Virus record (IMG/VR): IMGVR_UViG_3300033145_000398
Location: 1-28,641 of that record
DNA length: 28,641 nt
Strand: one strand, 5' to 3'
Source: a virus
Program-made: the position numbers and the translations under genes
Notes under the pieces: model-generated
Seen by the model: only the letters and a program-made list of their open reading frames with translations
Told to the model about the DNA's origin: nothing
Databases searched by the model: none
Shown here: positions 5,246-26,381 of the stretch, one piece after another
How the letters are laid out: every line of letters starts with the position of its first letter
Numbering within the stretch: the first letter of the stretch is position 1

Positions 5246-7285
5246 ATGCCGACCGATAAAAACAAGGCCATGAGTTTTGACGAGATCCAAAGGGAAGCCC
5301 TTGCTGAAATCCAAACCGCCGAGGATAATCGTGGAACTCGGGCCGAAAAGCGAGAAACTAATTGGGATCGCTACTATGGAAGAAAGCTGGGGAATGAAAA
5401 GAAAGGAAGATCACAGTTTATCACTCGTGATGTCATGGATGTCGTTGAGTGGATGATGCCCTTCTTTATGAAGACATTTGCTGCCGGAGACCCAAAAATA
5501 GAGATTGAAATTAAAGGTCAAGAACCGTTTGTCGGCAAGGCCCTGATGGAAAAAATCCAGATTGATTTGGCCGAGGGGACGCCGACAATTTTCTTTCTTT
5601 TCTACCAATGGATTAAAGATGCCCTTGTGTCGGACACGGCATTTGTAAAACTTGGATGGAACCTTGACCAAAAAACCGTTACGGCAAAATTTGATAGCTT
5701 AACTCAGGAGAATCTTGTCCAGCTTGCAAGCGACCCTGACGTTCAGATCACGGAAATAGAAGAGATTGCGGGGCCGTTTGTTGCGCCTACATGGAAAGCG
5801 ACATGTCGTGTTAAGCAGACCATTAAGGACACTATTTATGTAGAGAACACGCCCCACTGGGAATTTTTGGCCTCTTCAAAGGCACGAGACGTTAACGATG
5901 AGTACGGCAAGGGGCAAAAAACCGAAGTTACCCTTGACTACCTAAAACGTATTGACCGTGCAAGATCTGAAGATAAGGAGCAGTACTTTAAGAATCTTAA
6001 CGATCTTGAGTCTGCTGAGGGTAAAGGCGTACAGCCGGATACGCTGTCTGGTGAAAAAGCCAATTACATGGACGAGGACCAGCCGGTTGATCCATACACG
6101 GAATCCGAGACCGGCGCTAAAAGCCCTGTTAAGTTTAAAGAATGGTACACCCGACTTGATGTTGACGGTGACGGCTACCTTGAAGATGTTGTGTGTTACC
6201 TCGGCAATAACAAGTTGCTTAGGCACGAGATTAACGAAGAGGGTTTTATTCCGTTTTGTGCGATTCGTCCGATAATTGATTGTTATAAGTTTAATGGCAT
6301 AGCGTTTGCCGAACTGCTTGTGGAGATTCAAAACTTAAAGACCATGCTGTTCAGGCGGATTCTTGATATGTTCGATTTCCAGGTCTCGGGCAGGTGGCGG
6401 ATAGATCCTGATGGCTCCGTAGATTTGCACGCACTTTACAATCATACACCAGGCGGGGCTGTGACAGCCAAGAGTGGATCGCTTGAGGATATTTCTCCTG
6501 CACCTTTTAACCCCGGCAACTTTACGATTATTGAGTACGTGGATAAATTGAAAGAAAATCGAACCGGTCAAATACGTTATACATCGGATATGAAAGAAAA
6601 AACAGCTACGGGCATTGCCCAGGTACACACAGCTACTATGCAGCGGCTTGAGCTTGTAGCCAGGATTTTTGCCGAAGGGCTAAGAGATTTTTATAAGAAA
6701 GCGGGTTTGCTCTACCAACGCTATTTGCGAAAGCCGTTTACTGCAAAAGTGCATGGGCAAGAAAAAGAAATCACTCCCGAAATGATCCAGGGACAGATTA
6801 TTTGTACCGTAAACATGGGCATTGAGGCCAGCCTTGGCGTTGAGGAAGCCCAAAAGATTGAGCGCATGATCGGGTTGCTATTTAAAGTTAATCAGATGTT
6901 TCCGGGACTCTTGACTCCTGAGAAAATTCATAATCTTTGCCATCGGTATATAACAAGCTGGGGGTTCAAGAACGCCGACAGCTTTATTAATGATTTGCAG
7001 ACTTATGTTCAGCAATCGCAACAAGCAGCGCAACAATCACAAGAGATACAGCAACAGATGGTTGAGTTGCAGAAGAGATTTAAAGAGATGGAGTTGATGC
7101 TAAAGGGCAAAGAAGTTGAAATTAAAGCAAAGAAAGTTGATGTTGATGCGGAGCTTGAATCGAGAAAAATAATAGAGGATGTTCAAATAGAGGAAAAGAA
7201 AATCATCCAAGACGAAAAGGAATCATTAAGGGAGTTTAAGCTCGATTTATTAGAGCTTGCAAAACCCGTGGGTGCAGGGGTTTAA
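5246..7285 (+). CDS. portal protein (podovirus type)
   Basis: The portal is the dodecameric ring at one capsid vertex through which DNA enters and leaves. The 679-residue protein has the features of large podovirus portals: an N-terminal helical section with TNWDRYYGRK and RSQFITRDVMDVVEWMMPFF (about 33-78), which is typical of the family, and a central acidic loop DVDGDGYLEDV (about 305-315), which also recurs in these portals and resembles a calcium-binding loop. ENRTGQIRYTSDMKE at about 436-450 lies in the region of the tunnel helix. From about 576 to 660 there is a Gln-rich then Lys/Glu-rich coiled coil, like the barrel helices of some portals. SD is GGGG four bases before ATG. Position after terL and before scaffold and capsid genes fits. 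Confidence 0.9.
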   Translation: MPTDKNKAMSFDEIQREALAEIQTAEDNRGTRAEKRETNWDRYYGRKLGNEKKGRSQFITRDVMDVVEWMMPFFMKTFAAGDPKIEIEIKGQEPFVGKALMEKIQIDLAEGTPTIFFLFYQWIKDALVSDTAFVKLGWNLDQKTVTAKFDSLTQENLVQLASDPDVQITEIEEIAGPFVAPTWKATCRVKQTIKDTIYVENTPHWEFLASSKARDVNDEYGKGQKTEVTLDYLKRIDRARSEDKEQYFKNLNDLESAEGKGVQPDTLSGEKANYMDEDQPVDPYTESETGAKSPVKFKEWYTRLDVDGDGYLEDVVCYLGNNKLLRHEINEEGFIPFCAIRPIIDCYKFNGIAFAELLVEIQNLKTMLFRRILDMFDFQVSGRWRIDPDGSVDLHALYNHTPGGAVTAKSGSLEDISPAPFNPGNFTIIEYVDKLKENRTGQIRYTSDMKEKTATGIAQVHTATMQRLELVARIFAEGLRDFYKKAGLLYQRYLRKPFTAKVHGQEKEITPEMIQGQIICTVNMGIEASLGVEEAQKIERMIGLLFKVNQMFPGLLTPEKIHNLCHRYITSWGFKNADSFINDLQTYVQQSQQAAQQSQEIQQQMVELQKRFKEMELMLKGKEVEIKAKKVDVDAELESRKIIEDVQIEEKKIIQDEKESLREFKLDLLELAKPVGAGV

Positions 7286-7288
7286 GAC

Positions 7289-7591
7289 GTGACCGAAACC
7301 GAACAAACAGATGATGAGCGAGGGCGTCGCCTTATCTTAGGTCAAGAGGCCCGTAGGTTGCTGGAAGCTCCCTTGATAAAAGGGTTCTTCGCCGACCATT
7401 ATGCGGTTTGTTATAAAGCGTTTTGTGATTTACCAATGGATTCAAGTTTGGAGAATTATCGGGTAGTACACCATAACTTTCTGGCAGCCAAAGCATTGTG
7501 GGACTCTCTTCAACTGCACATCACACGAGCCGAGGCGGACACCATTGAAATGAAACAGGAAGCGAAAGTATCGGAAGATATTGAAGTATGA
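7289..7591 (+). CDS. small portal-adjacent protein, unknown function
   Basis: A 100-residue protein starting at GTG three bases after the portal stop, with GCAGGGG as a likely SD inside the portal end. It is mainly helical and charged; a central segment (ENYRVVHHNFLAAKALWDSL, about 51-70) resembles small proteins often encoded next to podovirus portals, whose function is unknown to me. Its stop overlaps the HNH gene start by ATGA. Confidence 0.75.
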   Translation: MTETEQTDDERGRRLILGQEARRLLEAPLIKGFFADHYAVCYKAFCDLPMDSSLENYRVVHHNFLAAKALWDSLQLHITRAEADTIEMKQEAKVSEDIEV

Positions 7592-8199
7592 AAAAAAAGG
7601 AGCACAGAATAAACAACGGAATAGAAGAAAAACATTGTTTTAAGTGTGATACTTGGAAGCCATTAGGTAGCTTTGGGATTGGTAGTAAGGTGTGGGATGG
7701 ATTAAGGGCTGATTGTAAAGAATGTGCAACAAGGGCTAGTAAACAATACTATCAAAATAATCCTGAAAAGCGGAAAGAAATGCGTAGAAGATACCGCCAA
7801 AATAATCCTGAAAAATACCGCCAAAACAGAAAAAAAGCAAGAATGCGCCGTCAATTAAATCCTAAAAATAAACTGTATGACCTAGTTAGTCATGCTATAT
7901 ATAGGAGTTTATGTAGTAACAAAGATGGTCGTTACTGGGGGGATTTGGTGGGATATTCAATCAAAAAACTAATTCAGCATCTTGAAAAACAATTCCAACC
8001 TGGCATGACTTGGGACAACTATGGTGAATGGCACGTGGATCATAAGGTTCCTGTTTCAGCATTTAACTTCAGAGGCCCTGGGGACATTGACTTCAAAAGG
8101 TGCTGGGCTTTAAGTAATTTACAGCCCTTGTGGGCGAAGGATAATGTAAGAAAGGGTGCCAAGTTGGATAAATGTTTTCAGCCAAGCTTGGCTTTATAG
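7588..8199 (+). CDS. HNH homing-type endonuclease with zinc ribbon
   Basis: A 203-residue probable free-standing homing endonuclease, a DNA-cutting selfish gene. The N-terminus has two Cys pairs, C17-x2-C20 and C43-x2-C46, likely a zinc-binding ribbon for DNA contact. Residues 53-92 are a very basic linker with a duplicated QNNPEK motif. The HNH core is at 147-190: GEWHVDHKVP (H149, D151, H152), then the conserved LSNLQPLW (177 Asn) and KDNVRKGAK (186 Asn). The gene is visibly more AT-rich than its neighbours (long A runs, many AAT, AAA and TTA codons), which is a sign of transfer. It starts inside the stop of the upstream gene (ATGA) and has no role in the virion that I can infer. Confidence 0.93.
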   Translation: MKKKEHRINNGIEEKHCFKCDTWKPLGSFGIGSKVWDGLRADCKECATRASKQYYQNNPEKRKEMRRRYRQNNPEKYRQNRKKARMRRQLNPKNKLYDLVSHAIYRSLCSNKDGRYWGDLVGYSIKKLIQHLEKQFQPGMTWDNYGEWHVDHKVPVSAFNFRGPGDIDFKRCWALSNLQPLWAKDNVRKGAKLDKCFQPSLAL

Positions 8200-8505: not shown

Positions 8506-8524
8506 GGAACCAACCACACCCCGA

Positions 8525-8555
8525 GGGTCTCGTTGGAAATACGAGGCCCTTTTTG
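8525..8555 (+). terminator. rho-independent terminator
   Basis: Stem GGGTCTCGT (8525-8533) pairs with ACGAGGCCC (8541-8549), nine pairs with one G-U, loop TGGAAAT, followed by a run of five T and then GTATTT. This is a standard intrinsic terminator closing the portal-HNH-small gene unit. Because the scaffold and capsid genes lie downstream without a clear sigma-70 promoter in the 70 bases between, either read-through, antitermination or an unrecognised phage promoter must supply their transcript. Confidence 0.75.
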
Positions 8556-8576: not shown

Positions 8577-8620
8577 GATAGCGACAAAGGCTATCCGTAG
8601 CGACAGTGGCTACGAGGAGG
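8577..8620 (+). promoter_or_regulatory. twin GACA-loop hairpins abutting the scaffold SD
   Basis: Two consecutive perfect 6-bp hairpins: GATAGC/GCTATC with loop GACAAAG (8577-8595), and CGTAGC/GCTACG with loop GACAGTG (8596-8614). The second ends on the first base of GAGGAGG (8614-8620), four bases before the scaffold ATG. Both stems end in AGC, both loops begin GACA and end G. The arrangement recurs at 11375-11401. Its place beside the SD suggests control of translation or a binding site for a phage protein. Confidence 0.6.
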
Positions 8621-8624
8621 AACC

Positions 8625-9584
8625 ATGCCTAAAGATAAGGCGACAAAATCGGAAGAAGAAGTAAAAGACGACTTAACAAAGGCGGAAGAAGAGGAGGGCT
8701 TTATTCCTTTACCCGAGGCTCCTGAAGAAGTCGAAGAGCCTGAAAAGATCGAAGATGAAGAACCGGAGAAGCCAGAAACAAAAAAGGCTGAGAAAAAAGA
8801 AGAGGAACCGGCTTTTAAGTTGGAGCCCCTTCAGCCCGAGACGGCTCCGGCCTCTGAGGATGAAGATTCTGAGGATACAATAGAAATTGTTTATCACGGT
8901 CAGGTTCATCGGCTTACCAAGGAGAAGATCGTAAATCTTGCACAGAAGGGTTTCGATTATGAAACGAAGGTCGGCCCACATGGCAAGATTGTCCAGATGA
9001 TTGAAGCCGACCCCGAGTTGGCTCAAATAGTCGCAGCTCACTGGAAGAAAAAGACCGAGGGGCCAACCAAGGAAGAGAAGCCAGGCGATGAGGCCCAGGC
9101 TTTAGAAGTAAAGCCAATGGACGAGTACGATAGTGAGGTTGATTGGTTAAAGGACAACCTTCAGGGCGTAGTCAAGCTACTTGGCGCTACTGCACAAAAA
9201 AAGGGTGGCGATGCTTCTACTGAAGCGACAGCGCCACAACAATCGCCGGTAGCAACAATGCTTTTGACACGAGACCCGAAACATTTTCATCATGTCATGA
9301 GCAAGTTCCCTGAATATGTTGGCCGGTTGAGCGTGGCAGACTACCAGCGGATTGATTCGGACCCTGCGGCACTGTGTCAGTTCTACGACTTCGTGAAAGA
9401 CCAGGAAGTAGAAAAATTGACCACGACCTCAGAGGGCAAGCCAAGCTCTTCTAATAAGCCGCCTTTTAAAGTCAAATCTGGTGGAGGTGAAGCTCCAAGA
9501 GCGTCTGATGATGTAGATGCTGCTTGGAAGCTGTCAAACAAGGACTTTGAAACACAATTAGCCAAAGTAAAAGGCTATGCTTGA
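8625..9584 (+). CDS. capsid scaffold protein
   Basis: Scaffold proteins guide capsid protein assembly and leave before the mature head forms. This 319-residue protein has the typical make-up: an extremely acidic, Lys/Glu/Pro-rich disordered N-terminus (residues 1-90), a small ordered segment around 92-130 (IEIVYHGQVHRLTKEKIVNL and a following Tyr/Gly stretch) and a charged tail ending in helical KVKGYA. It sits directly before the major capsid gene, the usual position. It has the strongest SD of the window (GAGGAGG) just behind twin hairpins. The call rests on composition and position, since scaffolds diverge quickly. Confidence 0.85.
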   Translation: MPKDKATKSEEEVKDDLTKAEEEEGFIPLPEAPEEVEEPEKIEDEEPEKPETKKAEKKEEEPAFKLEPLQPETAPASEDEDSEDTIEIVYHGQVHRLTKEKIVNLAQKGFDYETKVGPHGKIVQMIEADPELAQIVAAHWKKKTEGPTKEEKPGDEAQALEVKPMDEYDSEVDWLKDNLQGVVKLLGATAQKKGGDASTEATAPQQSPVATMLLTRDPKHFHHVMSKFPEYVGRLSVADYQRIDSDPAALCQFYDFVKDQEVEKLTTTSEGKPSSSNKPPFKVKSGGGEAPRASDDVDAAWKLSNKDFETQLAKVKGYA

Positions 9585-9605
9585 AAAAATAGGAGGTGTT
9601 TTTAA

Positions 9606-10607
9606 ATGGCACTTATAACAGGAACGAGTGACATTGCGGTAAACTTGCAAGGACACTATGACCGCAACTTACTAACACGGGCGTTGCCAGCCCTTATCCA
9701 TGGCCGTTTTGGGCAGATCCGGCCCCTTCCGAAAAACAAGGGGACGCGGATTAACTTCCGTAGATTTAATTCTCTTGCGGCAAACACGACACCGCTGAGT
9801 GAGGGCGTAACGCCTACTGGCAAGAAACTCACGACCACGGATATTTACGCAACGGTCAAATTTTACGGGGACTTTCTGACTTTCTCCGATGTAATTCAGC
9901 TTACAGGGCTGGATGCGACACTGGTGGAAGGGGGGGAAATCTTGGGTGAGTCAATGGGCCTAACCGCTGATACGCTTGACCGTGATGTGATAGTAGCCGG
10001 TACGAGTGTGCGCTATGCGAATAGCGTTGCCGGCAGGTCTTCTGTTGCCACGGCCATTGCTACGGCAGATGTTAAGTCGGCAGTTCGTATCCTTGAGGGC
10101 AATAACGCCAAAAAGGTGAGAACGATGGTCGTAGCTGGACAGAGGATTGGCACAAGGCCAATTGCCCCTGGTTTTTATTGTATTGCCCATACCGATTGCC
10201 GTCAGGACATTGAGGCATTGGCTGGTTTCACAAAGGTTGAAGAGTACGCCAGTCAGAAAAATGCCCAGGAAGAGGAAATCGGTAGCTGGGGCAACGTGCG
10301 GTTCCTTCTGACCACCAATGCCAAGATTTGGTTGGCTGGTGGCGTAGCCGTTGGCGCTACGGGATTAGTGGCCGCTGACAGCACAAACATTGATGTTTAC
10401 TCTCATCTGATCGTTGGCCAGAACGCTTATGCGACCGTGCCGCTTCAGAAAGGAAACATCAAGAACATTATTCACAAGATGGGTAGTGCGGGCACGGAAG
10501 ATCCTTTGAACCAGAGGGCGACTTCCGGCTGGAAAATGGCTCGCACAGCCAAGATCCTTAACGATAACTTCATGAACCGCATCGAGTGCGGCGTGACCGA
10601 TCTATAG
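9606..10607 (+). CDS. major capsid protein, N4-gp56 family
   Basis: Shell-forming protein with the HK97 fold. The 333 residues match the N4 gp56-type family pattern: an N-terminal arm with YDRNLLTRALPALIHGRFGQ (about 18-37), an E-loop region with KNKGTRINFRRF (43-54) and LSEGVTPTGKKLTTTDI (about 63-79), then YGDFLTFSDVIQLTGLD (about 87-103), and a domain with HTDCRQDIEAL. The C-terminal part has an A-domain-like segment ending TSGWKMARTAKILNDNFMNR. SD is AGGAGGTG (9591-9598), spaced seven bases from ATG. Directly downstream of the scaffold. Confidence 0.94.
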   Translation: MALITGTSDIAVNLQGHYDRNLLTRALPALIHGRFGQIRPLPKNKGTRINFRRFNSLAANTTPLSEGVTPTGKKLTTTDIYATVKFYGDFLTFSDVIQLTGLDATLVEGGEILGESMGLTADTLDRDVIVAGTSVRYANSVAGRSSVATAIATADVKSAVRILEGNNAKKVRTMVVAGQRIGTRPIAPGFYCIAHTDCRQDIEALAGFTKVEEYASQKNAQEEEIGSWGNVRFLLTTNAKIWLAGGVAVGATGLVAADSTNIDVYSHLIVGQNAYATVPLQKGNIKNIIHKMGSAGTEDPLNQRATSGWKMARTAKILNDNFMNRIECGVTDL

Positions 10608-10610
10608 AAA

Positions 10611-10620
10611 GGGAGGTGAT
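10611..10620 (+). promoter_or_regulatory. extended Shine-Dalgarno of the 230-residue gene
   Basis: GGGAGGTGAT matches the anti-SD of 16S rRNA over nine bases (GGAGGTGAT), six bases before the ATG at 10627. It indicates strong initiation for the product just behind the capsid protein. Confidence 0.7.
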
Positions 10621-10626
10621 GATAAA

Positions 10627-11319
10627 ATGAGGGATACATTAGTTTTATATGGTCAGGGGACGGGAGCCTCCACGTATTTCTATACCGGCTTTGCCCCTGG
10701 CTTTGTTGAAGTGCGATCAATGGCAACTGAAGAGGATGTTGCGTTCTGGTGTCCATTACTGCCGGAAGAGGACTCAATCGAGATCAATGCCGACGATGGT
10801 GTTTATAATCTTGACACCAGTGATGGTATTCGACTCGTAAAATTTGACGATGAGCCAGGGACCGTACCTGGGTCTGGTGGAACGCCTTCTGATGTTGAGA
10901 ATGGCCGATGGTACGAGGCGAACGGTATTGAAATCACCGCATCATCCGTTGGTATTGTTGACGGTATCCCATATTGCGTGATTGTTCACAGGATGACCGT
11001 GCCAATGGTTCGTGCCGTCCACGATGGAACCACAAGTAGCAACACCTATTTCGAGGATAGTTCCATTGATTTCCTTGAGGCCGGTGTTTCTCCTAACGGC
11101 AAGTTTATTATTATCAACGAGACAAATGATAATTATGCCTATGTGGGCGAGATTACTAAGCCGTCTGGCAAGACCAGGCATTGCCGTATTTATACCTATG
11201 AAGACGAAAACCTTGATACGGCAACCGCCGCTGCGGACTTCGATACTGCTGATGTTTGCTACATTATTCCGAGGCAGTGGGCACAATCGCCTTTGAGTGG
11301 CGTGGGTTTAATGACCTGA
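10627..11319 (+). CDS. virion protein of unknown function after the capsid gene
   Basis: A 230-residue acidic, beta-rich protein following the capsid gene by 19 bases with a near-perfect SD. Segments of alternating hydrophobic residues (YCVIVHRMTVPMVRAVHDG, KFIIINETNDNYAYVGEITK, ADVCYIIPRQWAQS) suggest beta sandwiches. A high-expression SD beside the capsid gene fits a capsid decoration or head-stabilising protein, but no family is recognised and it could be another head-associated factor. Confidence 0.8.
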   Translation: MRDTLVLYGQGTGASTYFYTGFAPGFVEVRSMATEEDVAFWCPLLPEEDSIEINADDGVYNLDTSDGIRLVKFDDEPGTVPGSGGTPSDVENGRWYEANGIEITASSVGIVDGIPYCVIVHRMTVPMVRAVHDGTTSSNTYFEDSSIDFLEAGVSPNGKFIIINETNDNYAYVGEITKPSGKTRHCRIYTYEDENLDTATAAADFDTADVCYIIPRQWAQSPLSGVGLMT

Positions 11320-11339
11320 TCGTAAACATTCTAACCTTA

Positions 11340-11401
11340 TGTTCGGGGGCCGACAAATGGTCCCCGAACATTACAACAGCGACAATAGGCTGTTGAGGAG
11401 G
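11340..11401 (+). promoter_or_regulatory. long hairpin plus GACA-loop hairpin abutting an SD
   Basis: First element: TGTTCGGGGGCC (11340-11351) pairs with GGTCCCCGAACA (11359-11370), twelve pairs with one G-U, loop GACAAAT. Second: AACAGC (11375-11380) pairs with GCTGTT (11389-11394), loop GACAATAG; GAGGAGG begins on the next base. The long stem lacks a T-run, so it is not a normal terminator. Both loops begin with GACA, as do those at 8577-8614. It may be a processing, stabilising or translational control site. Confidence 0.6.
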
Positions 11402-11406
11402 ACAAC

Positions 11407-11964
11407 ATGAGTACAAAAGAAACACCTTTTTTAGAAAGTGATGTGTTAACCAAGGCCGGTAAACCTTTTGAAAAAAAGGGCGCTTGTGTCATTGCGCTTA
11501 CACAAAAGAAACTAAGAGCGACGCATGAGCCGGTTGCGGTCCCTGGTGGGTTTATTGGCAGAAAGGTTGAGGACAAGCCCAAAATCTCCATAAAGCCACT
11601 AAAGTGCAATATCCGATGTCGTGTTACCCGAACAAACGTGGACCCGGACAATGCCAACATCCCGATAACGGTAATTGTGAATGACCGCAAGAATAAGCGG
11701 GAGTTTTTACCAGGCCAGGAAGTGCTGTTATCTAAAGCGCATGTTGATGCACTGAGAATGTCCGTGGAGGAAACCAGGCTTGTCATACCGGACGATAGCG
11801 GTATCTATCAATCAAGCGATCCTATGGCCCTGGCAAGAAATCAGTACCCGGAGATGATACCGGAGCTTGACCCGATGACGGGGCAGATTGTGATGACCCG
11901 TAAAATCAGCAACTACATAGTTGAGCAACTGGGCAAGGTAGAATCGGAACAAAAGGCGGCATAG
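11407..11964 (+). CDS. head-region protein of unknown function
   Basis: A 185-residue protein with a strong SD (GAGGAGG, five bases before the ATG). The centre (residues 55-95) is basic and beta-like (RCRVTRTNVDPDNANIPI, VIVNDRKNKREFLPGQE), with an SKAHVDALRMSVEETRLVI segment at about 115-133. I recognise no family. Its location between capsid and adaptor genes suggests a head-completion or connector role. Confidence 0.75.
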   Translation: MSTKETPFLESDVLTKAGKPFEKKGACVIALTQKKLRATHEPVAVPGGFIGRKVEDKPKISIKPLKCNIRCRVTRTNVDPDNANIPITVIVNDRKNKREFLPGQEVLLSKAHVDALRMSVEETRLVIPDDSGIYQSSDPMALARNQYPEMIPELDPMTGQIVMTRKISNYIVEQLGKVESEQKAA

Positions 11965-20354: not shown

Positions 20355-23300
20355 ATGCTACCGGCTTGGGATGAAATAACGACAAGCGATAACTGGATGT
20401 CTCTGACAGACGATCAAAAGCGTGCTGTTCACGGGCAGTATGCAAAAGACCTTCAGCAAGAGCCTTCGTTTAAGTCTCTATCTGGTGAAGATCAAGGCAA
20501 AGTTTTTGCTCAAATGAAAGCAAATGCAGGTTTTGACCTTGAAGAACCTGGATTTTTTGAGACCACGGCAAAGGGTGCGGCGCATGGCGTTTTGGGACTG
20601 GCTAAATCGGCTGGGCTTGCCACAAGGTGGCTGGGTGGCAAAACCGGATCTGATACGATTAAGGAAGCCGGAGACGTTGCAGCAGATTTTTGGGGTAAAG
20701 AACAAACCCATTTTGAAAAACCGGAAGAGTGGGGAACTTTATGGGAAAATCCTGGATTACTGAAAAAGGCAAGCTATTGGGGGTATTCGGTAGCTGATAT
20801 GCTTCCATCATTTGGTGCTGCTATTATTCCAGGCGTTGGAGCGCATCGGTATATTAAGATAGCTGGCAATGCCATAAAGCTTACCCCTAAAGTAGTTGGC
20901 CGATTAGCGACCCTGGGGGCTGGCCTTGCCGGTGGTACGGTTGGTGGCGCACTTGAAGGTACAAACACATACGAGGAATCCCTAAAACAAGGGGCTACCG
21001 AAGAACAAGCAGCCGCAGCAGGAGAGCTTATGACTCTTGCGGCTGGTGTGCTGAACGCTATCCCTGTTGGAAAAGCGCTGACACCTGCAAAACGAGGCAA
21101 GCTCATCAAGTATCTTACAACAGGCGTGGCTGAAGCCGTGACGGAATGGGCAGAGGAGCCTACTGAGGCGGCTATTCTTCAAGCTGGCGGCATGGAGGGC
21201 GATGTTGTCGAGGCCATGAAGCAGGGCGTAGATGTTATTCCTGCCGCATTTCTTCTTGGTGGGGGCATGGGTGCTATTGGGCAAAGAGCTATAAGGAAAA
21301 CAGAGGAAGCAATTCCGCCAACAGAGAAAAAGGTATCTCCCGACAAGCTTCGTGCGGCTCCCCTTGAAGAACTTGAGACCATGCGCCAAGACCCACGATT
21401 TGCCGATCTTACTACACAGATTGATGAGGTTATTGCTGAAAAGCAAGCCGAGGCGAAACCCTCAGAGACAATAGCGGAGCAACGGCAGGTAGAGATTAAT
21501 CGCTTGTGGGCAGAAGAAGAAGCCCGTATTGAGGCCGAAGAGGGCAAGCCACGGCGATTGACGGACGAAGAGCGACAAGTGGTTATAAACAAGGCTTTTC
21601 CTGAAGAGGCCAAAAAGGAGCCAGTAAAAGCCAAGGAAGAGGTTCCGCCTTTGACTACCAAAGAAAGGTTTATCAAAAAGATTGCTGAGAAAAAAGAACC
21701 TGTAGTGCTTCCCGATGTAATACGCACGAAAAAGGATACTCCGTTTAAGACAAAAGGTGCGGCCATTCTTACGGCTAAGGCTAAAAAATTGGGACCTGAA
21801 TATCAGCCCGTTCAGGTTGAGGACGGATGGGAACTACGCAAGCCTGAAGAACTTACCCCTACCGAGAAGCTTCAAGCCAAGGTAGAAGCGGAAGTGCCGC
21901 TTGGCAAACGGATCGTTGATGAAATCAAACAGCCCGTTGACGCCGCTATTGCGGCTGATAAAGCTGGCAGGGCCAAGATTGCCGAGAAAGCCACTCAAAA
22001 GGCCCAAACAAACGCTAAGTCGGTCAAATTAGCCGATGGGCCAGAGGTTGAGGCGTTAGTAGATGAACAATTGGGGAGATTGCCAAAAGCTGAGGCTCCT
22101 AAGGAAGTGGCCCTAAAGGCCAAAGAGCCGTGGGAGATGAAGCAAGCCGATTGGATTGATGGTCATATCAAGTCACCCGCAATGCACAAAGAGCATGTTA
22201 AAATAGCCCTTTCTGAGAATAAGCCTGTACCCGATGCTGTTCTTGTTGAGTATCCTGATTTAAAAGCAACCCTCAAAGTTGAGGCCAAGCCCCTTGCTCC
22301 AAAAGAGCAAAAAAAGTATCTAATTGATGAGATCGATAAAGCGATTGAGGAAGCACCTACTGGTACGTTTGAAAAGGTTTACCTTCCGTATCCAGAAAAA
22401 TGGCGTGGCACATTAAGTAAAAAAGAATTGCAAAAAATAGCTGAAACAACAGAAAAAGAGTTATCAAAACGAGAAAAAGAATACGGCACGATAACAATCC
22501 ACGTCCCTGATGATGGTGATTTTGAGATTATAAACTCTAAGGCACATCTTCAGGAGTTTAAGAAGCGAGCAAAAAAGTTTTTACTGTCTACGCTTGAGAA
22601 AAAGCCATACACGACACCCTCCAAGAAACCTATTGGTAAGCGCATGGAAGGTGAGGTTGAGTATTACAATAAGTACGAGCCAAGGAAACAGGAATTAGTA
22701 GAGGCATATAACAAGGAAAAAGAGGTGGCTGACCAGCATTATAAAGGTGGCTGGTTTTCAGAGGGTCACTATGCAATCAGGGTCCCAAGGTCACAGATAA
22801 AACAACCCGTCCGAACGGGCAAAGAGGCTAAAGACATACAAGGAGCCATCCCAAAGGTAGGGCTAACACCTGCAACAATACTTGGAGAGACAAGATTTGG
22901 TCCCAAAGAAAACGTACCCGTAGTCCATGTTAAGGGCAAGGACGGGGCCGAGGTATTTCTAAATGCTAAATACGTTGATGTGGTGTTTACGAATTATCCC
23001 GATGCTAAACCATCCATTACTGTTGTCGATGGCCCAGTTGTGTTCAAGTCTAAAGGCAAGACAGTTGCTGTTGTTATGCCAATGAGAGAAAGCGGGTTGC
23101 CCGAAAAATTAGCAGGGAGGCCAGGAGAATTATTTCCAGAGGAATATCCAGAAGCAAAGCCTGAACCCGAAGCCGTAGCTCCTACGCAGCCGGGCCTTGC
23201 CTATCGCAAGGGTAAGCAGATACCTTTCCGTGAGTACCGAGAAATTACGAGGGGTAAAGACAGGGGCAAGATTCAAGTAACGTGGCCGGAGGGCAGAAAG

Positions 23301-26300
23301 GGCATAATTGAGAAAGCTGATGTGATACGGATGCCGGAAATTGCGGAAAAACTTTCGACAGACATTGACCAAGCCAAATCCCGCATCAAGTCCGCCCTGA
23401 AAGACCAGCGTGGCTCCTTCTCCATGAAACAAAAAGATGGTCCCGCTATTTATAAGGATCTGGTTACAGTCGGAAAGCACATAATCAATCAGGGCCATAC
23501 AAAGTTCTCTCAGTTCTCAAAGCAGCTCAAGGCTACCCTTGGTAATACATGGGCCAAGGTAAAGAATATGGCCTTAAAAATTTTCGCTGATGCCAAGAGA
23601 GTTTTGAAAAGTGAGCGTGGGGCTATAACGTTTAAAGAGGCTCCCTATGGCGAGAAACCCCTATCACCAACTGCACAGAGCATTCTTGATGAAATTACAA
23701 TGGCAGAAACGAGAAAGGCAACCCCAGCAGACAAAAAAGGTGTAAACGAAATTAAAGAACATTTTAAAGCCCTTGGCAGAGGGCTTGATCCCCGCAAGAC
23801 GGGGCTTGGGAAAGCGGTAGAACATCTTGTTAAGTCTCCTGAATGGTATGACCATCCTGCTCAAAGAAAAGCTACTGAAGTAGCCATAGACCGTTCATCC
23901 CTCTATCATGAAAACTTCAACGAGTTTAATCAAGTAGATGATATAAATAGCCCGTTTGATACTGTAACCGATGCCCTGGTTGCGCTTGGTCGAAAAGGTG
24001 GAATTAGCAAATTCAGATTTTTAACAGGCAGGCGGTCAAAAGAATATGAGCAACTTGAGGAAATCCTTGATGAGGCTGATATTCAAAATAAGGTTCATAC
24101 AGTGGATAGCCTTCGCAAGGCAGGTGTTAATGAGGATATAATCCATGTATGGAGTCTTGTCAGGGCCTCATTCGACAAGCAGCTTGAGGCTATGCAAAAG
24201 CCTATGAGGGACTTGATTGCAAAGATCGAAGAGCAGGCAAAGTTTCAGGACAAAGAACCAGTATACCCTGATTTTGGATCATATATTGATAAGAACGGCA
24301 AAAAGCGGCCCCTTAATCTTAAAGAAGCCCTTCTGATGATGGGCCAGTATAAAGGCTCTTATGCTCCCCGGATTAGAGAGCCTGGCAATTGGGTAGTTCA
24401 AGGAAAATTTGGTATTAGCGGCCAGAGAATAAGACAACACAAGCGGTCTAAGGTTGCCGCCGAGTTTTTGGCAACCAGTCTTAGAAAAAAAGGATATAGC
24501 GATGTAAAAGTTAGCCCCAAAGAACAGCTTCTTGAAGAAACCTTCTCTATGATTCGAGTAATGGAGGTTGGTGCAGCTATTGAGCGGGCGGCCAAGGAAG
24601 GCGAGGGCCTGAAAAAGTATGATACAGAACTTCAAATGATGTTTCTTGAAGATATGCTGACATCAGCCTCAGACCTTATTAAGTCCCGTGGAGCCAGGGC
24701 AACCATGATCCGCAGGCGCAAAGGAGCAGTTATAGCCGGATATATGACTGACCCGCTTGAGAGGTTTATTCGATATACGTCTAATAATAGCGGTGGCATG
24801 GCAAAAGCTGAAACTGCACAAAAGCTGTTCAATCTCTTATTCGGAGAATACAAAGCGGGTAAGAAAGTAGGTGGTGTCGATCAAGCCAAGGAGCCCCAAA
24901 CTCACAGGGCTATGCGTAAATATATTGAGGAACAGCTTAGAAATCCTGAACGGGCAGATAGGGTGATAGGGCTTTTGAAAAGCATAGCTACCTTTAAATA
25001 TCTCGGATTTAACCCACGTTCCATTACCGTCAATATAACATCGCTGGTCACAACCGCACCCGTAGCAATTCATCAATATGTAATGGATGGCAAAGGTGGT
25101 TTTACAAAGATAGGCTTGGCCCTTTCAAAAGCCAGCAAGGATTACGGGAAGGCCATGACTGGCAAAAAGCTTGAGAATAAAGACGAGCAGGCTTTTATCC
25201 TTGAGCAGAAAAGAAAGGGTTATGCTGACCCTCAATACACCCGTGAGGCAAGCGGTCATATCCAGGGGGCTTATGGCACGGCTTGGTCAAAAGCTATGGG
25301 TAGTAGTATGTGGGCATTCGGTAAGTCCGAGGAATGGGTTAGGGGGGCGACTATGTTGGCAGGGTTCCGACTTGCCCGCAAGAACGGTTTGTCCCCATCA
25401 GAGGCTACTAAAAAGGCCAAGGTTGCATCCGACAGGGCTCACGGCATCTATGGCAAAGAAACGCTCCCTTCGTGGGCTCAAGGCACGGGACCGGCGGCCA
25501 GGGTGGGGCAAATGGTTTATGTTTATGCTAAATTCCCGCACAATGCTCTTCAAATGTATTACGACGTGGGCGTGAAAAAGAAAAACGTGAAGGGAATAAT
25601 CTATGCACTTGCGGCCCCTGCGGTTCTTTCTGGTATTGCAGCGTTTCCCTTGAAAGACACAATTATAGCCTTTGCAAATGCCATGCTTAAAGCCCTTGGA
25701 GATGACAGGGATGCTGAAAAAATGGTGTACGATACAATTCGTGAACAGCTTGGAGAACGAGCCGAGAAGGCCGCACGATTAGGCGTATTGGGTGAAATGG
25801 GGATAGACGTTTCTGGCTCTCTTGCGATGGGGCCAGGATCATTACCCAAAGAACTTTTAGACCTTACAGGGGCAATCGGAGGCGTGGCAAAAGATATAAG
25901 CGAGGCGGGTCGATTTATAAGAACGGGCCAGCCTGGGCGGGCCATTGAAAAAGCCCTACCAGGAGTTGGGGCAAATATTTTAAGGGCTATACGAGAGTTA
26001 AGGGGTGCAACGACCAGAAGAGGCTATCCTGTTTGGGATAAACGGGGACGACCACTTGTTCCTGCCAAAGGTGAAACCGCCTTGCGTGTTGCAGGTTTTA
26101 GGTCTGCTCGACAGGCACGATTAGCTCAAAAAACATGGGAGGGCAAGCGAGAACAGGCCAGATTTAATGAGCGGCGCAAAAGAATCTATGAGAAGGTCCG
26201 AGCATACATTTCTAATAGAGACCAATCTCTACGCCAGGAAATAAATGATGATATTGCCAAGTACAATCGTGCGGCATACAGGGCCGGCACGGTATCGCTT

Positions 26301-26381
26301 ATCACTCGACAATCAATAGCACAGCAAATACGACGCATGACAAGGCCCACGGCAAAGCAACGGCGGGCCGTGGCAAGATAA
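20355..26381 (+). CDS. giant polyvalent-type internal virion protein
   Basis: A 2008-residue protein, probably packaged in the head and ejected with the genome. N-terminal residues 1-70 (WDEITTSDNWMSLTDDQKRA onward) resemble the opening of phage polyvalent proteins. Hydrophobic and glycine-zipper segments follow at about 140-160 (DMLPSFGAAIIPGV) and 180-203 (TLGAGLAGGTVGGALEG). Residues 330-760 are charged linkers with small domains such as KTKGAAILTAKAKKLGPEYQ (about 464-483). A beta domain lies at about 832-912 (NVPVVHVKGKDGAEVFLNAK). A helical domain at about 1031-1094 (VTVGKHIINQGHTKFSQFSK) resembles ones seen in polyvalent proteins. The C-terminal part (about 1199-2008) is helical with a hydrophobic stretch near 1748-1780. 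No active site is assigned with confidence. Confidence 0.85.
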   Translation: MLPAWDEITTSDNWMSLTDDQKRAVHGQYAKDLQQEPSFKSLSGEDQGKVFAQMKANAGFDLEEPGFFETTAKGAAHGVLGLAKSAGLATRWLGGKTGSDTIKEAGDVAADFWGKEQTHFEKPEEWGTLWENPGLLKKASYWGYSVADMLPSFGAAIIPGVGAHRYIKIAGNAIKLTPKVVGRLATLGAGLAGGTVGGALEGTNTYEESLKQGATEEQAAAAGELMTLAAGVLNAIPVGKALTPAKRGKLIKYLTTGVAEAVTEWAEEPTEAAILQAGGMEGDVVEAMKQGVDVIPAAFLLGGGMGAIGQRAIRKTEEAIPPTEKKVSPDKLRAAPLEELETMRQDPRFADLTTQIDEVIAEKQAEAKPSETIAEQRQVEINRLWAEEEARIEAEEGKPRRLTDEERQVVINKAFPEEAKKEPVKAKEEVPPLTTKERFIKKIAEKKEPVVLPDVIRTKKDTPFKTKGAAILTAKAKKLGPEYQPVQVEDGWELRKPEELTPTEKLQAKVEAEVPLGKRIVDEIKQPVDAAIAADKAGRAKIAEKATQKAQTNAKSVKLADGPEVEALVDEQLGRLPKAEAPKEVALKAKEPWEMKQADWIDGHIKSPAMHKEHVKIALSENKPVPDAVLVEYPDLKATLKVEAKPLAPKEQKKYLIDEIDKAIEEAPTGTFEKVYLPYPEKWRGTLSKKELQKIAETTEKELSKREKEYGTITIHVPDDGDFEIINSKAHLQEFKKRAKKFLLSTLEKKPYTTPSKKPIGKRMEGEVEYYNKYEPRKQELVEAYNKEKEVADQHYKGGWFSEGHYAIRVPRSQIKQPVRTGKEAKDIQGAIPKVGLTPATILGETRFGPKENVPVVHVKGKDGAEVFLNAKYVDVVFTNYPDAKPSITVVDGPVVFKSKGKTVAVVMPMRESGLPEKLAGRPGELFPEEYPEAKPEPEAVAPTQPGLAYRKGKQIPFREYREITRGKDRGKIQVTWPEGRKGIIEKADVIRMPEIAEKLSTDIDQAKSRIKSALKDQRGSFSMKQKDGPAIYKDLVTVGKHIINQGHTKFSQFSKQLKATLGNTWAKVKNMALKIFADAKRVLKSERGAITFKEAPYGEKPLSPTAQSILDEITMAETRKATPADKKGVNEIKEHFKALGRGLDPRKTGLGKAVEHLVKSPEWYDHPAQRKATEVAIDRSSLYHENFNEFNQVDDINSPFDTVTDALVALGRKGGISKFRFLTGRRSKEYEQLEEILDEADIQNKVHTVDSLRKAGVNEDIIHVWSLVRASFDKQLEAMQKPMRDLIAKIEEQAKFQDKEPVYPDFGSYIDKNGKKRPLNLKEALLMMGQYKGSYAPRIREPGNWVVQGKFGISGQRIRQHKRSKVAAEFLATSLRKKGYSDVKVSPKEQLLEETFSMIRVMEVGAAIERAAKEGEGLKKYDTELQMMFLEDMLTSASDLIKSRGARATMIRRRKGAVIAGYMTDPLERFIRYTSNNSGGMAKAETAQKLFNLLFGEYKAGKKVGGVDQAKEPQTHRAMRKYIEEQLRNPERADRVIGLLKSIATFKYLGFNPRSITVNITSLVTTAPVAIHQYVMDGKGGFTKIGLALSKASKDYGKAMTGKKLENKDEQAFILEQKRKGYADPQYTREASGHIQGAYGTAWSKAMGSSMWAFGKSEEWVRGATMLAGFRLARKNGLSPSEATKKAKVASDRAHGIYGKETLPSWAQGTGPAARVGQMVYVYAKFPHNALQMYYDVGVKKKNVKGIIYALAAPAVLSGIAAFPLKDTIIAFANAMLKALGDDRDAEKMVYDTIREQLGERAEKAARLGVLGEMGIDVSGSLAMGPGSLPKELLDLTGAIGGVAKDISEAGRFIRTGQPGRAIEKALPGVGANILRAIRELRGATTRRGYPVWDKRGRPLVPAKGETALRVAGFRSARQARLAQKTWEGKREQARFNERRKRIYEKVRAYISNRDQSLRQEINDDIAKYNRAAYRAGTVSLITRQSIAQQIRRMTRPTAKQRRAVAR

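Follow-up and report, generated by a model that had tools for sequence, protein, structure and literature searches.

Why does a phage genome carry short hairpins with the same loop start, directly against the ribosome binding sites on both sides of its capsid gene? The question is raised by the window, meaning here the whole stretch of DNA that was analysed, an IMG/VR phage record of 28,641 bases. Its structural gene cluster is of the podovirus type and runs from terminase and portal through a 100-aa protein, scaffold, major capsid protein (MCP) and a gene called X to the gene P185, which is followed by an SU10-adaptor-like gene and by tail and internal virion proteins (table). In StenR_269, the gene in the position homologous to that of the scaffold is annotated as a scaffolding protein. 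A free-standing endonuclease VII/HNH-like gene (phrog_1035, 7588-8199), with a DNA sequence about 71% similar to part of Methanosarcina virus MetMV, adjoins the scaffold leader, and the C-terminal part of a 2008-aa internal virion protein (20355-26381) matches phrog_11358, a 3431-aa family of unknown function.

An earlier note on this DNA had described three short hairpins and a longer one with GACA at the start of their loops, the last of each set lying directly against GAGGAGG. Direct reading of the sequence bears this out for all four; the 6 bp given for the third (11375-11394) sit inside a 7-bp hairpin, and the longest hairpin has 13 bp with one G-U pair, or 12 bp when counted at 11340-11370, and has a counterpart at 6725-6761 of the related locus L004. 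In both leaders the hairpin next to the Shine-Dalgarno (SD) sequence abuts it directly, the first G of GAGGAGG being the last G of the stem. The sequence AGCGACANNNGCT occurs twice in the window against 0.06 expected, and a looser hairpin pattern finds only three sites in the whole record, all forward, with no sites for a reversed control pattern over the same record. The window hairpins are present in both the MFE and the centroid structures given by RNAfold, and folding z-scores for the two leaders are -3.0 and -6.4, values to which nearby strong hairpins contribute. An alternative helix at 11391-11407, TGTTG(AGGAGGA)CAACA, would loop out the P185 SD and competes with the P185-leader GACA hairpin, which it excludes; such an SD-sequestering helix is absent from the other leaders inspected. 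A search of the window against Rfam 15 gave no match at E up to 1, and the element would be a new RNA family.

Features of the window around the scaffold, MCP, X and P185 genes
Feature	Position	Strand	Basis
Intrinsic-terminator-like hairpin and U tract, immediately 5′ of scaffold leader	8523..8551	+	fold
Scaffold-leader GACA hairpin 1, GATAGC(GACAAAG)GCTATC	8577..8595	+	sequence; covariance model 27.2 bits
Scaffold-leader GACA hairpin 2, CGTAGC(GACAGTG)GCTACG, abuts SD	8596..8614	+	sequence; covariance model 27.1 bits
Scaffold Shine-Dalgarno GAGGAGG	8614..8620	+	sequence
Scaffold gene, 319 aa	8625..9584	+	position before MCP, acidic N-terminus, homology to same-position scaffolds
Major capsid protein (MCP) gene	9606..10607	+	phrog_1357 E 1e-68
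Gene X, 230 aa	10627..11319	+	
Long GC-rich hairpin between X and P185, ATGTTCGGGGGCC(GACAAAT)GGTCCCCGAACAT	11339..11371	+	sequence, fold
P185-leader GACA hairpin, CAACAGC(GACAATAG)GCTGTTG, 7 bp	11374..11395	+	sequence
P185 Shine-Dalgarno GAGGAGG	11395..11401	+	sequence
Extra GACA motif between P185 SD and ATG	11401..11404	+	sequence
Gene P185, 185 aa, neck-region, precedes SU10-adaptor-like gene	11407..11964	+	

The element recurs in related phages. A search with the MCP found 13 relative loci at 73-81% identity. In nearly all of them the scaffold start bears GACA hairpins, and such hairpins are likewise present at the P185 start in those loci that hold it. One or the other site is missing in truncated contigs, and in L006/L189 the P185 leader forms another hairpin, with a GACT loop, and no GACA hairpin. 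Further loci were added by searches with scaffold and P185 alignments. The element was also found in the scaffold leaders of distant relatives, L173/L177/L178 (MCP identity 63%), L176 (69%), L175 (55%) and L180 (49%); it is absent from L168-L170, L172, L174, L179 and L181 despite homologous head genes, and from most of the set with 42-60% MCP identity. This distribution marks the element as old, though patchily present. The leaders compared (16 of scaffold genes from IMG/VR phages with MCP identities of 49-81%, 11 of P185 and six of gene X) come from contigs that are metagenomic fragments and include near-duplicate loci (L011/L012/L013/L024/L124; L014/L126/L015; L173/L177/L178). They were gathered by protein homology; L034 and L021 were first met in a scan for the GACA pattern, but the MCP and scaffold searches also led to them, and the sample is therefore not selected for the element, except for four distant genomes added because they bear it.

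A covariance model built from 22 elements has 33 matches at E<0.01 in the 279 kb of contigs that bear the element, a number reached partly by construction (in-sample E-values) and including duplicate loci and a few coding matches, and the same model has one match in 280 kb of contigs from sister phages and outgroups. One model match, TCAAC(GACAATG)GTTGA in L115/L120, was dropped as the coding end of the preceding gene on the basis of the homologous frame in L125, and the matches L120:7036/L115:4132 were set aside as coding and in-gene. A pattern scan of IMG/VR with 18 matches revealed no convincing copy next to an SD in phages other than this group, the rest being chance-like, and an MCP search of 84,980 species genomes found no close relative, only matches of 30-44% (MAGs and a few isolates). 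The element-bearing phages are uncultivated and of the short-tailed type.

Some other features of these genomes were recorded along the way. In the sister phages L168 (4870-4960) and L170 (5890-5960), which lack the scaffold element, AGCGACATCC abuts the 5′ side of a strong GC hairpin located behind X or MCP. The MCP gene of L011/L124 (MCP region), L126 and L015 is interrupted at about residue 90-115, in two slightly different places, by a LAGLIDADG-type homing-endonuclease-like ORF of 206 and 263 aa, and this insertion is probably an intron. The portal ORF of L115 (6997-10137) has 1046 aa versus 679 in the window, and the extra 370 aa or so may be an intein or other insertion.

Compensatory differences are found already within the window, where the stems read GATAGC/GCTATC, CGTAGC/GCTACG and CAACAGC/GCTGTTG. 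Among 22 elements with 7-nt loops, two-sided stem changes number 22 versus 8.0 in shuffles, pairs 2, 3 and 4 changing on both sides only and never on one, and among 31 elements including the distant genomes they number 42 versus 14.4 (0 of 500 shuffles), a signal that is lost when the stem partners are slid; these changes are not independent events, the alignment mixing orthologous and paralogous copies. A full strand swap is seen in P185 leaders, GTTAGC(GACAG)GCTGAC in L122 versus GCTGAC(GACAG)GTTAGC in L115. The innermost stem pair is always C-G, and its neighbour is G-C in 30 of 31 elements. Over the same 31 elements the loop consists of G or A, an invariant A and C, then A (with one GACC exception), followed by one to four variable bases with a purine as the usual end; its length is 5-8 nt, mostly 7, and only the 5′ GACA is kept. 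GACA starts a hairpin loop in 22 of 27 leaders, compared with a mean of 0.54 and a maximum of 4 in shuffles and with 5 for the next tetramer. This covariation and loop conservation show that the hairpins are under selection at the RNA level, as had been proposed from different stems sharing one loop start, and all three observations whose absence the earlier note had named as telling against its view, covarying stems, a conserved loop and recurrence before the homologous genes of relatives, were made.

The motifs come at least in pairs. When GACA is counted over the last 75-95 nt before the start, at least two copies are present in 32 of the 33 bearing leaders, 75 in total against about 18 expected, and GCGACA occurs in every one of the 33 (16 scaffold, 11 P185, 6 X). 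Each family contributes to this excess, with 40 copies versus 9.6 expected in the scaffold leaders, 23 versus 5.4 in those of P185 and 12 versus 2.7 in those of X, and CGACA occurs 66 times versus 3.4 in the three families together. Eleven MCP leaders have 3 copies versus 3.1 expected, that is, no enrichment, and the MCP leader of the window is without the element. Usually at least one GACA per leader lies in the loop of a hairpin of 4-8 bp. The second motif takes the form of a tandem hairpin in the window, L004, L015, L005, L180 and L175; it follows the stem immediately in most P185 leaders, for example GTTAGC(GACAATA)GCTAAC-GACAAAGGAG; and it forms a hairpin over the SD and the AUG in L118, L124, L122, L121, L125 and L178. 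The two-motif signature is restricted to few genes: it marks 37 leaders among the 308 genes of element-bearing contigs, and 30 of the 37, in a list that includes near-duplicate loci, belong to scaffold, P185 or X. At L125:9902-9919 and in L024 (minus strand, 798-818), a GACA hairpin with a 3′ GACA is located directly 5′ of the SD of another gene, which in L125 begins MKLNVL..., and there is therefore a fourth target in some genomes.

The element keeps close to the SD and the AUG in many leaders. Scaffold hairpins end 11-16 nt 5′ of the ATG in most genomes, and GAC is found within the 12 nt that precede the start in 8 of 15 genes with the hairpin versus 15 of 161 others. The hairpins that cover the start are AGGC(GACAAAU)GCCU (L118), GGGC(GACAAAU)GCCU (L124), AGAC(GACAAAU)GUCU (L122), GGAC(GACAU)GUCC (L121), GGAC(GACAU)GUCU (L125) and AGAC(GACAAU)GUCU (L178); the SD flank and codon 2 change together in them (GGC/GCC versus GAC/GUC), in stems of only about 4 bp with few independent changes. 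The hairpins of X leaders lie 37-70 nt 5′ of the ATG, directly behind a terminator-like stem and followed by an A-rich stretch, and contact with the SD is therefore not required by the element. Gene X is located behind MCP in the window, L004, L118 and L126 and before the scaffold gene in L115, L120 (13485-14162), L121, L122, L124 and L125; it has its own two-GACA leader when it precedes the scaffold and none directly upstream when it follows MCP. Thus it is the leading gene of every apparent transcription unit that carries the element; MCP, which is inside the scaffold unit and presumably on the same mRNA, is never marked. A terminator-like stem with a T-run precedes many leaders, as judged by eye except in the window and a few others, since an automatic check with strict rules missed most of them.

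From these features the element is best read, with a probability of roughly one half, as a cis-acting two-site RNA operator of translation in head-region leaders, recognized by a putative two-site RNA-binding protein. Each leader would offer at least two GACA motifs. At least one would form the 5′ part of a hairpin loop whose closing pair is C-G, and the other would stand in another hairpin, immediately 3′ of the stem, or in the stretch from the SD to the AUG. GACA would be read by a trans-acting RNA-binding protein, probably a dimer or another protein with two binding sites, which, sitting against or on the SD/AUG, would lower (less likely raise) translation of scaffold, X and P185, leaving the MCP cistron free. 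The translational action is suggested by the position of the element and by its start-covering variants, and the bivalent protein by the pairing of the motifs; we infer the existence, identity and valency of this protein as well as the sign of its effect. Structured RNA near or over the SD/AUG and compensatory conservation, two features of the operator class, are both present. The control of scaffold and head-gene translation that the earlier note suggested would fit this anatomy, in which the element abuts or covers the SD/AUG and is absent from the MCP leader, and its other suggestion, a binding site for a phage protein, is plausible. The pattern points to a new RNA switch or protein docking site that would tune the amounts of head proteins.

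A search for a co-occurring gene of the binding protein gave no candidate among contigs most of which are fragments. Since almost all genes common to the two longest contigs with the element (53 and 45 kb) are structural, a partner encoded by the phage would probably be a structural protein; otherwise it would be a host factor. AlphaFold models of P185 (pLDDT 85) and X (74) had no significant PDB match and matched no solved RNA-binding protein, and the fold of P185 is similar to those of unnamed podophage proteins (best E in BFVD 1.5e-3). Only tentatively can a bivalent GACA operator class be put forward through which scaffold, X or P185 itself might feed back on translation of the assembly genes, sparing the coat; if true, this would provide a sequence-defined system for scaffold-type feedback in a dsDNA tailed phage. 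With an RNA element at scaffold and two head-region genes and not at the capsid gene, scaffold/coat control becomes testable, and the element, which is conserved and easily mutated, may supply a new RNA-protein pair for synthetic use.

Other roles can be proposed for the same hairpins. They could belong to the ends of mRNAs, the stems either shielding from decay those head-mRNA 5′ ends that arise at the upstream terminator or by processing close to it, or insulating the SD from upstream structure, and GACA being kept as an especially stable or nuclease-resistant loop like CUUCGG in the intercistronic hairpins of T4. The many elements directly behind a terminator-like hairpin, the X-leader hairpins far from the ATG and beside a terminator, and the tandem copies would all suit such a function, but loop stability does not explain an unpaired GACA beside the stem or GACA hairpins over the AUG, and a loop of 5-8 nt with only its 5′ GACA kept is unlike a compact stable loop, and we consider this role rather unlikely. 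A promoter of the N4 type was rejected, for the SD stands where transcription would start; N4-type hairpin promoters have 3-nt loops and a transcription start just downstream.

The hairpins might instead be boxB/nut-like or put-like elements that cause read-through of terminators between head-gene units, either by loading an N-like peptide or by direct action on RNA polymerase. The elements alternate with terminator-like hairpins, and the tandem hairpins are reminiscent of put sites. Antitermination is retained as a rival because of the likeness to boxB, which in P22 has a GACAA loop (PMC12550061). It is improbable, however: the 33 leaders contain no boxA-like (GCTCTT-like) sequence, the loops are mostly of 7 nt and not 5, and the close placement to the SD/AUG is left unexplained. 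No N-like gene is shared among the contigs compared, but these are incomplete and N peptides diverge fast. A host RNA-binding regulator or ribosomal protein might instead read the hairpins, which would then be host-mimicking sites and not feedback operators of the phage. If the host sets the partner, one would expect what is seen, namely that essentially only structural genes are common to the element-bearing contigs and that the element is missing from several sister phages whose structural genes are the same; gain and loss predicts the patchiness equally well, however, and there is no Rfam match to a host leader element. We consider this explanation improbable.

The proposed two-site operator resembles several known systems in part, the nearest in function being the T4 gp43 operator, CsrA sites and P22 boxB; it would act in the manner of gp43 or CsrA sites. 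Hairpins with CUUCGG recur between T4 cistrons, near SD sites and with the same loop; the elements here share this recurrence, but none has a C(UUCG)G loop and their two-motif arrangement differs. CsrA/RsmE sites are paired short motifs read by a dimer, of which one often lies in the loop of a hairpin and the other at the SD, an arrangement like that described here, whereas their motif is ANGGA and that of the phage head mRNAs is GACA; no GGA in a hairpin loop was found in the 31 aligned elements. The MS2-type operator of an RNA phage is a start-region hairpin bound by coat protein, and the hairpins over the start region are similar to it except for the loop (ANYA versus GACA). The operator of T4/RB69 gp43 (DNA polymerase) consists of a leader hairpin with a conserved loop and a sequence overlapping the ribosome binding site (PMC3014915). 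The likeness lies in a small leader hairpin with a conserved loop near the ribosome binding site, but the gp43 operator has one target gene, one hairpin about 40 nt upstream and a UAAC-type loop, whereas the elements here have GACA loops, paired sites and three head-region targets; no UAAC-type loop before a DNA polymerase gene was found among them, the targets being head genes. The GACAA pentaloop of P22 boxB is folded in a GNRA-like manner, its C being flipped out towards the N peptide (PMC12550061). GACA on the 5′ side of a hairpin loop is common to both elements. The P22 pentaloop adjoins boxA in early operons, whereas here there is no boxA and the placement is at the SD/AUG. In P22, scaffold synthesis is under post-transcriptional control and coat synthesis is not, and such control of scaffold versus coat has been known genetically for decades in P22-like phages; no operator defined in sequence is known to us for such control in a DNA phage. 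Autoregulation by the P22 scaffolding protein was reportedly described by King, Hall and Casjens in 1978 and by Wyckoff and Casjens in 1985. The phage studied here is unrelated to P22, and its scaffold is only a candidate repressor, but the distribution of the candidate operators, present at scaffold and absent at MCP, is alike.
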